Source: Candidatus Yanofskybacteria bacterium RIFCSPHIGHO2_01_FULL_43_32 (GTDB lineage Bacteria; Patescibacteriota; Minisyncoccia; 2-02-FULL-40-12; GWA2-44-9). From it: a stretch of 54,022 nt of DNA. The notes under the pieces were generated by a model, which was given only the letters and a program-made list of their open reading frames with translations, was not told the DNA's origin and ran no database searches. The position numbers and the translations under genes were made by a program. Positions 13,290 to 38,001 of this stretch are shown piece by piece (within the stretch, counting starts at the first letter, position 1; every line of letters starts with the position of its first letter). Where the stretch lies: assembly GCA_001794125.1 (NCBI GenBank), contig MGJF01000001.1:1-54022 (forward strand), read 5' to 3'.

Positions 13290-13362
13290 TCACCGCTCCT
13301 TTTTGATTGGAAACGAACGTGGCAATATTATATCACGCAAGTTATATTATTGCAAGAGTCGC

Positions 13363-13683
13363 TTCCACCTTCCCATTTACGACCTATTGCCTGCGCCTTC
13401 GGTCTCAAATGGGAAGGGATTTCGCTTGATTTAAAAACTGCGAAGGCCACATGCCTTCAGAGAACGACCCGCAGGCGCTTGGGCTTGGTTCTGCCAAGCG
13501 CCGAGGGAGAAGAAAGATTTGCCGCTGGAGCAAATCTATTCTGGTTCGATGAAGGCATGTGGCCTGGAGGGGTGGGCTAACTTATTTCTTTTATCCCTTC
13601 TTTGATTTCTTTTTGAGAGCGTCTTCTAATTTTTGCCCTTGAGACGGGCTTAACTTTGCTTTCATGGACCTGCGAAGGTGGAA
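13363..13683. ncRNA. Structured repeat family 1, copy A (core 13444-13565)
   Basis: 15-bp perfect arms AGGCCACATGCCTTC/GAAGGCATGTGGCCT; HP1 GGCGCTTGG-GCTTGGTTCTG-CCAAGCGCC; HP2 AGATTTGC-CGCTGGA-GCAAATCT; flanking helix CTTCCCATTT/AAATGGGAAG. Confidence 0.65.
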
Positions 13684-14843: not shown

Positions 14844-14960
14844 TCGTTCGTAGCAATGGCCCTTGAACCAAGACCATCTGGCGAATCCCCAAAATTAAAG
14901 ATTTCTTTTGTAGTAGGACTATATATTATTTATCCAAATTTTGCAACCTCTTGCACCTGA

Positions 14961-14990
14961 ATCAACGGCTCACATGTGTGAGCCGTTGAT
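14961..14990. repeat. Palindrome ATCAACGGCTCACA-TG-TGTGAGCCGTTGAT, copy 1 of 3
   Basis: Near-identical palindromes at 26532 and 35834. Confidence 0.75.
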
Positions 14991-15046
14991 TATTAAGCGC
15001 AGCCCTATTATTTTTCTGTCATTTGACGAGTCAAAATATTTTTAGA

Positions 15047-15183
15047 GCCCCCAGCCACATACCCACAGGGAGAACTTGCGCAAACGTTTCGGCTTGGTTC
15101 TTCGAAACGTTGAGCATGTAGATAGCGCCGAGCCGCTGGAGCGAGGCGACTATCGGTCGAGTCGGGGGTATGTGGCTGGGGGC
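15047..15183. ncRNA. Structured repeat family 1, copy B
   Basis: 18-bp perfect arms GCCCCCAGCCACATACCC/GGGTATGTGGCTGGGGGC; HP1 AACGTTTCG-GCTTGGTTCTT-CGAAACGTT; HP2 loop CGCTGGA. Confidence 0.65.
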
Positions 15184-20200: not shown

Positions 20201-20343
20201 GAGCTTAAATTATATCCCGGCCAAATCCCCGTCTGAATCACTCCTCGGAGCGATACGGTAACACAAAGAAGCTGACGGATGGAAAAATTGTCATTATAGC
20301 GAAGCGCTCATTCAGGTACCACACCAAGGAGCGAGACCCCGTT

Positions 20344-20562
20344 CCCATTTGAGGCCGTTTGGTTTCGCCAGGTAACACAAGACTAAAATTAACCGATAAT
20401 TTGCTTATTCAATAAATTTTAGCCGGAAAACCCCGCTCTTTCTTGAAGATTAGAAAGAACGGGGGCAAACGGTTGCTGAAATTTATTAAGCAAATTGAAA
20501 GTTAATTTTAGTATTTGTCTGGCGAAGATCCGGAGGACGTAACCAATAGGCCGACAAATGGG
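20344..20562. ncRNA. Long structured hairpin, candidate ncRNA
   Basis: CCCATTTG/CAAATGGG, GGCC/GGCC, TCGCCAG/CTGGCGA, AATTTGCTTA..AAATTT/AAATTTATTAAGCAAATT, apical CCCCG..CGGGG. Confidence 0.5.
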
Positions 20563-20623
20563 GATGGGGTTGAGCGACACTTTGTTTATAACTCCCTACC
20601 TCTTGTGTGCTAAAATATTAAAT

Positions 20624-36802: not shown

Positions 36803-36944
36803 TTTAAGCGAAATGACACATGCCTTCAGAGAAGGACTCGGAGGCATTTCGGCTTGGTTCTGCGAAATGCCGAGAGACAAGAAAGATTTGCCGCCGGAGC
36901 AAATCTATTCTGGTTCGGATGAAGGAATGTGTCTTGAGCGCTTT
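36803..36944. ncRNA. Structured repeat family 1, copy C
   Basis: GACACATgCCTTC/GAAGGaATGTGTC; HP1 GGCATTTCG-GCTTGGTTCTG-CGAAATGCC; HP2 AGATTTGC-CGCCGGA-GCAAATCT. Confidence 0.65.
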
Positions 36945-38001
36945 ATTTTCTTTCTTCCAGTTTAACTTTCACCTTAACTTGCCGGTCTTTTCTCAAAACA
37001 GTCAGTTCTACTTCTGATTCAACTTTAAATTTTTGGAGCATATCCTGAAGCTCTTCGGATATTTTTTCCCCGTTTAATTCCAGAATTATGTCGTTCTCTC
37101 TGATTCCGGCTTTTTCCGCGGGAGAGTCGGGGACAATGGCCACGGAATCCGGTCGGTGGTCTCGAACGACTAAAGCTCCGTAATCAACCGGCAAAGAATA
37201 TTGCTTCTGCAGTTTTTTGTCTAATTTTACGTATTGAAGACCTAAATACGGCTTAACGATCCTTCCGTATTTTATAATGTCTTCAAGGTCTTGCTTTGCC
37301 CAGTTTATCGGAATTGAGAACCCTATGTTCTGGGCGCCGAAAATAATAGCGGTGTTGATGGCGACCACCTCTCCGTCGATGTTTATCAGCGGACCGCCTG
37401 AATTGCCCTGATTAATGGCTACATCTGTCTGAAGAACGCCCCGCAGATGTTCCATTTCTCCCCCGGTGCCCAGAGCGGCGGAAATACTTCTTGATAATCC
37501 GGAAATTATTCCTTTTGAAACGGTATTGGAAAACATGCCCAAGGCATTTCCGATGGCGAGTACGGTTTGTCCCAGTTCAAGCTTTGACGAATTTCCCAGA
37601 CGAACGGCTGGCAACCCTTTTCCGCCAGCTGGCGGATTAATTTTCAAAACGGCAATGTCATTTATCGGGTCTCGGGAGAGGACTTTTGCCGGATATTCCT
37701 GAAGGTCGGTCGTAATGACGGTGTATTCGGCATCCTGATCAAAAACGACATGTTTGTTGGTGAGTATAAGACCGTCGGGATGAACGATAAATCCGGAGCC
37801 GCCGCCCACGCTTATTTTTTCTTTTTGGCCGTCCTCAACTTCTCCGAACAGGAATGGGTTTGAAAAAGGAGTACCGGGCATGCCGTAAACCCCCTTAATT
37901 TTTGGAAGGAATTTTGATATAACGACACTAACCACCGAAGGAGCGACTTTTCTCACTGCTTCAATGGGAAGCTTGTCGTATTCATTAGATAATGTAGTCA
38001 T
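36943..38001 (-). CDS. htrA: Trypsin-like serine protease with PDZ domain (HtrA/DegP)
   Basis: 'GSGFIVHPDGLILTNKHV', 'NQGNSGGPLINIDGEVVAIN', PDZ. Confidence 0.94.
   Translation of the reverse strand: MTTLSNEYDKLPIEAVRKVAPSVVSVVISKFLPKIKGVYGMPGTPFSNPFLFGEVEDGQKEKISVGGGSGFIVHPDGLILTNKHVVFDQDAEYTVITTDLQEYPAKVLSRDPINDIAVLKINPPAGGKGLPAVRLGNSSKLELGQTVLAIGNALGMFSNTVSKGIISGLSRSISAALGTGGEMEHLRGVLQTDVAINQGNSGGPLINIDGEVVAINTAIIFGAQNIGFSIPINWAKQDLEDIIKYGRIVKPYLGLQYVKLDKKLQKQYSLPVDYGALVVRDHRPDSVAIVPDSPAEKAGIRENDIILELNGEKISEELQDMLQKFKVESEVELTVLRKDRQVKVKVKLEERK
37621..37636. repeat. Palindrome TCCGCCAGCTGGCGGA inside htrA
   Basis: Identical 16-mer in tsaD; encodes the extra 'NPPAGGKG'. Confidence 0.8.

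Follow-up and report, generated by a model that had tools for sequence, protein, structure and literature searches.

The stretch of DNA analysed here (the window) comprises 54,022 nucleotides of contig MGJF01000001.1 from Candidatus Yanofskybacteria bacterium RIFCSPHIGHO2_01_FULL_43_32 and carries, on its plus strand, three copies of a structured repeat that we call the Y element. Each copy is a three-way junction consisting of an outer stem (P1) and two hairpins, HP1 with GCTTGGT in its loop and HP2 with the loop CGCYGGA. Copies were scored with two covariance models, R1, built from 18 copies, and the broader model R2. Copy A (approximately 13440-13568, subtype I/II) was matched at 13438-13569 with 151 bits by R1 and 137.5 bits by R2. 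Its P1 arms (13444-13458 and 13551-13565) pair over 15 perfect base pairs, or at 91% over 22 nt; HP1 has its stem at 13474-13482/13494-13502 and the loop GCTTGGTTCTG at 13483-13493, and HP2 has its stem at 13516-13522/13530-13536 and the loop CGCTGGA at 13523-13529. Copy B (15046-15183, subtype III; model match 15046-15182, 122 bits by R1 and 106 bits by R2) has P1 arms at 15047-15064 and 15166-15183, its HP1 loop at 15092-15102, and the HP2 loop CGCTGGA. Copy C (36807-36939, subtype I; 137 bits by R1 and 124 bits by R2) has 14-nt P1 arms that pair at 93% (36815-36828 and 36920-36933), its HP1 loop at 36852-36862, and the HP2 loop CGCCGGA, and it adjoins the stop codon of an antisense gene at 36943-38001. 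When the plus strand was folded as RNA, the z-scores were -8.3 for copy A, -6.6 for copy B, and -5.1 for copy C, with no dinucleotide shuffle scoring as well, and folding as DNA was likewise far better than that of dinucleotide shuffles.

An earlier note on this DNA had described a common architecture for the three elements, and all three were found where it had placed them. The HP1 stems differ in sequence yet remain paired (GGCGCTTGG/CCAAGCGCC, AACGTTTCG/CGAAACGTT, and GGCATTTCG/CGAAATGCC) around the loop GCTTGGTTCTK in each case, the HP2 loops conform to CGCYGGA, and the outer stems of copies A and B are indeed perfect over 15 and 18 bp, respectively. The span given for copy A (13363-13683) is too wide for the element proper, and a 13-nt inverted repeat at its outermost edges (13363-13375/13671-13683) was not seen as a feature of the family. 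The motif CACATRCC, said to lie in the closing stem, holds for subtypes I and III of this genome but not for the family as a whole.

Copy A faces a second structured repeat. A shortened copy of this family (P) lies on the minus strand at 13361-13425, head-to-head with copy A and separated from it by an AT-rich spacer of 14 nt. P elements are approximately 225 nt long, with a long AT-rich inner hairpin and the ends GCGA...GAGC(G), and approximately nine near-complete copies occur in this genome, either alone or as the usual head-to-head (5'-to-5') partner of Y elements. A solo copy is located on the plus strand of the window at 20329-20583 (77% identity by blastn, E-value 2.5e-43), and others lie at L012:2600-2845, on contigs C13, C6, C4, C3, C2, and C5 of G000, and in numbers in the congeneric genome G001. 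The hairpin of 13361-13425 also occurs, reverse-complemented, 3' of the Y copy at C4:24218. At L011:2374-2600 (G000 C4:24173), the 3' flank of a Y copy is the reverse complement of the 5' flank of copy A, and the sequence looks as if the core had been flipped inside its palindromic stem.

Across the family, Y elements are 125-190 nt long. P1 spans approximately 15-25 bp of no fixed sequence, and its foot is often closed by a tandem GA motif (GCGA...GAGC), which is exact in 17 of 92 copies, with GCGA near the foot in 19 of 92. P1 is connected to the three-way junction by an internal loop of purines and a short helix, GAAC/GTTC. HP1 is made up of a helix of 3 bp, an asymmetric loop (GCA/GA or GGA/GA), a variable stem of 6-9 bp, and, on the 5' side, the fixed GCTTGGT, after which some copies have an additional variable hairpin. 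HP2 is a variable stem with the loop CGCYGGA. The loops are strongly conserved, with CGC[CTA]GGA present in 86 of 92 copies, GCTTGG in 73, and a CGNRG...CGAG loop in 88. A shorter subtype with the HP1 loop GACTG or similar and the HP2 loop AGCAG was also matched by R2. Hairpin insertions seem to be common in this genome: the Y copy at L014:3929-4113 (G000 C2:111928) has an HP2 loop interrupted by 53 nt of palindrome-rich sequence, and its 5' flank holds another palindrome, TCCCACACTCATGCATGAGTGTGGGA, bordered by repeated GACGAG. The perfect palindrome TCAACGGCTCACATGTGTGAGCCGTTGA, a further repeat, is found at 14960-14991 of the window and directly beside the Y copies at G000 C2:110463, C9:24185, and C3:12595.

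The count of three copies in the earlier note proved too low, as the genome itself (762 kb) contains 23 copies by blastn and R1 and 24 by R2. The covariance-model search that the note had proposed for further copies also recovered them beyond this genome. R1 identified copies in 28 of 95 relatives, and R2 identified 1-27 copies per genome in 24 of 28 members of the GTDB family and, under strict filters, copies in 23 of 380 genomes spread over Patescibacteria, so that occurrence is sporadic but phylum-wide. A degenerate pattern scan of approximately 85,000 species returned 58 stretches, and every stretch that the models confirmed bears a Patescibacteria name, Ca. Yanofskybacteria being among these; none of the pattern matches outside this phylum was confirmed by the covariance models. 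Phages and plasmids yielded no match, and neither did three pattern scans of viral contigs. A scan of Y element sequences against Rfam, at the gathering score and at a loose E-value, returned no match, in agreement with the note's statement that no named family was recognised, and no description of such repeats in Patescibacteria was found in the openly licensed literature. Y elements thus apparently constitute a large, widespread, and undescribed family of intergenic DNA elements of approximately 130 bases. Although the genomes of Patescibacteria are very small and few mobile elements are known from them, approximately 3 kb of this genome is taken up by some 24 copies of one selected fold.

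The fixed loops and covarying stems had been read as the mark of a selected RNA or single-stranded DNA (ssDNA) structure, and covariation across the family bears this out. In an alignment of 83 distinct sequences with 42 modelled base pairs, 88% of cells are paired and double-sided changes occur in every one of the 42 pairs; covariation scores 0.766, far above two controls in which partners were slid (0.09-0.14) or shuffled (0.21). None of the outcomes that the earlier note had set as refuting its reading (no further copies, no covariation, or a match to Rfam) was obtained, and no named MITE was identified in these searches. Because the alignment was fitted to the model, which may lean it towards pairing, P1 was rescored by an ungapped, symmetric, and strand-neutral scheme. 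The mismatches in P1 are strongly asymmetric, with 100 G.T against 15 A.C (p = 3e-13 in other genomes and 3e-4 in this genome) and 64 G.A/A.G against 2 C.T/T.C. As a G.T mismatch reads as A.C on the complementary strand, a strand-neutral process cannot produce an excess of G.T. The two asymmetries therefore indicate that it is the folding of a single strand that is under selection and rule out the mere decay of a palindrome, and the functional strand is the one bearing GCTTGGT and CGCYGGA. No G.T excess was found in P3b, near the HP2 loop, probably because loop-adjacent pairs were misassigned. The asymmetry between G.T and A.C mismatches can thus reveal the functional strand of a palindromic repeat from genomes alone.

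The outer stem evolves differently from the rest of the element. When copies whose cores are at least 95% identical are compared, mismatches amount to 0.16 per site in P1 and 0.024 per site in the core, so that P1 diverges approximately 7-fold faster; it nevertheless remains paired. Homogenisation of the core by gene conversion, arm-to-arm copying within the palindrome, or both are possible causes of this gap. An origin of the outer stems from the target site was considered because the G002 copies share cores and differ in P1; the P1 arms of these copies are still recognisably related, which makes rapid co-evolution or gene conversion of the core likelier.

The genomic context of the copies is that of a dispersed repeat. 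Y copies are intergenic, among housekeeping genes, and their 3' end often lies 0-15 nt from a stop codon. They show no preferred orientation relative to neighbouring genes (28 antisense to both, 21 sense to both, 13 convergent, and 9 divergent). All nine Y-Y pairs within 150 nt (two in G016 and one each in G000, G001, G006, G013, G021, G053, and G367) are head-to-head (5'-to-5'). The dispersal as mobile-like repeats, these doublets, and the selection on one strand are not part of the earlier description. In G001, whose rpsA orthologue has 90% protein identity, neither copy A nor copy B is present beside that gene, and the site of copy B is occupied by a short sequence similar to the 3' flank of Y elements; the two sites are not clean empty sites, which counts against a mobile reading, as the exact ends of insertion are thereby unproven. 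Four copies in G027 at separate loci share cores, with 129 of 129 nt identical between three of them, and six copies in G002 at unrelated loci have near-identical cores, which we take as support for what may have been recent spread. Between genomes, neighbouring genes are shared little more often than at random, so that positional conservation is weak at most. Recurrent places were seen beside dnaK (G000 and G008) and relA (G000, G015, and G027), with equal orientation in different genera, and could reflect hot spots or, alternatively, old copies passed on by vertical inheritance. No target-site duplication of variable sequence was found, the excess of short direct repeats being largely the constant AGCGA. 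The orientation relative to replication is inconsistent between genomes, with 8 of 8 copies one way in G119 and 15 of 21 the opposite way in G000, which speaks against a simple model of lagging-strand ssDNA. On contigs C5 and C12 of G119 (L221, L222, L271, and L275), the functional strand of the eight tested Y copies is opposite the G-rich strand, with a switch in orientation at the point where GC skew reverses, a pattern not seen in the other genomes.

Taking the fold, the selection on one strand, the dispersal, the doublets, the lack of orientation bias, and the absence of two copies from G001 as observed, we favour, with moderate confidence, the reading that the Y element is a REPIN-like non-autonomous mobile repeat in which one strand is recognised in single-stranded form, folded as a Y. 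The gene for the recognising protein would lie elsewhere in the genome, and the protein would read the fixed loops and the purine internal loops, cut close to the stem foot (frequently GCGA...GAGC), and move the element; a head-to-head doublet (Y-Y or P-Y) may be the mobile unit. We consider, with modest confidence, that the strand is more likely to be recognised as ssDNA than as RNA, and it would be exposed at replication forks or within an excised intermediate. We further suggest, tentatively, that these repeats could represent a separate class of mobile element in Patescibacteria, with inverted pairs of large Y-shaped single-strand folds as its mobile units (two Y elements, or one Y element and the unrelated P fold) and moved in trans by an enzyme other than Y1, TnpB, or a reverse transcriptase that reads the conserved loops and ignores the sequence of the stems.

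Selection on one strand, G.T wobbles, fixed loops, strong covariation, and conserved purine internal loops (GCA/GA, AGA/GAG, and the tandem GA at the foot) would equally be properties of a dispersed structured non-coding RNA, transcribed from the plus strand, that exerts its effect by binding a protein, in trans, or on mRNAs of the neighbourhood and whose copy number changes by duplication and recombination. One-strand covariation fits such an unnamed RNA and is expected to the same degree of a folded ssDNA. However, no promoter, terminator, or T-run occupies a fixed place in Y elements, and the elements favour neither an orientation nor a side with respect to genes, which together speak against a cis-acting or stand-alone RNA. 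The absence of two copies from the orthologous place in G001 and the lack of a relative in Rfam also weigh against this explanation, which we consider unlikely though credible.

In their working, Y elements most resemble the REP, REPIN, and BIME repeats associated with RAYT (TnpA-REP), which are dispersed intergenic palindromic repeats, single or in inverted doublets, that are thought to be moved in trans and whose hairpin is recognised as one strand (PMC3116915, PMC3733652, PMC8266576). Y elements are likewise dispersed, intergenic, and palindromic, and occur as singles and inverted doublets. REPs, however, are simple hairpins of 20-40 bp with a GTAG or CGTC tag (PMC3733652), whereas Y elements are three-way junctions of 125-190 nt with two fixed loops, carry such tags at the foot in 3 of 92 copies, and are not associated with Y1/RAYT genes; as they fail the tests of foot tag, size, and RAYT linkage, they were not filed as REPs. 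That they might nonetheless be REP/REPINs or MITEs of a resident Y1 transposase of the IS200/IS605 or RAYT type is suggested by the shared logic of one-strand hairpin recognition, inverted doublets, and mobilisation in trans, and by the frequency of Y1 genes in these genomes. Y1 does not track Y elements, as Y1_Tnp was found in 20 of 28 carriers and 32 of 67 non-carriers in a first scan, and the carriers G002, G003, G018, G027, and G034 have no Y1 match, even though G002 and G027 hold near-identical copies. Of the 32 loci inspected around Y1 genes, a single one contains a Y element, approximately 1.4 kb from a broken Y1 copy, and Y1 genes are not flanked by Y elements. TnpB (PF07282 zinc-ribbon family), a further candidate, was found in 0 of 28 genomes. 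An origin from Y1-type elements is thus improbable. A plain double-stranded palindromic repeat (MITE) whose symmetry is kept by template switching, without a selected fold, would account for the rapid yet paired divergence of P1, as arm-to-arm copying would give, but is very improbable given loops fixed throughout the phylum and a G.T excess unexpected of a strand-neutral process.

Other known systems differ from Y elements in several respects. ERIC and the enterobacterial RU are intergenic, mobile-like palindromic repeats of approximately 100-170 nt (PMC2759123). Y elements share these properties with them and other MITE-like repeats, and differ in the Y shape with two conserved loops, the head-to-head doublets, the distribution across Patescibacteria, and the lack of a detected target duplication; one-strand selection is a further contrast, in a comparison that covers the Y side alone. 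MITEs of DDE transposons differ from Y elements, which have no variable target-site duplication. The attC sites of integrons are folded single strands with variable stems that are recognised by a recombinase. Y elements resemble them in the folded strand and the variable stems, but none of 92 copies has R boxes (GTTRRRY/RYYYAAC) at the foot of its stem, and no cassette arrays surround the copies inspected. The omega RNAs of IS605 and IscB (TnpB, HEARO) are structured elements linked to a transposon, whereas here the TnpB zinc-ribbon family is absent from 28 of 28 genomes and the sequences scanned have no Rfam match.

The earlier note had asked for a linked transposase or RNA-binding protein, and none was found. 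Recurrent proteins among the neighbours of Y elements are encoded by housekeeping genes only, with no recurrent transposase, and no candidate mobiliser among Y1/RAYT, TnpB, reverse transcriptases, and recurrent neighbouring genes could be tied to the family. On the preferred reading of a mobile repeat recognised as a folded strand, an element that occurs phylum-wide, with its loops fixed and its stems free to covary, offers a ready handle for finding a new single-strand-recognising enzyme. Reverse transcriptases occur in 22 of 28 genomes, have no match in the copy carriers G016, G014, and G008, and are uncorrelated with Y elements. Most of the reverse transcriptase loci inspected are diversity-generating retroelements, whose TR/VR repeats exclude the Y element. 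At L347, L348, L349, L351, L352, L353, and L355, such genes accompany repeat pairs of 119-139 bp in which the mismatches lie almost entirely at A (T on the other strand) of one copy, and several of these retroelements are located within a few kb of Y elements.
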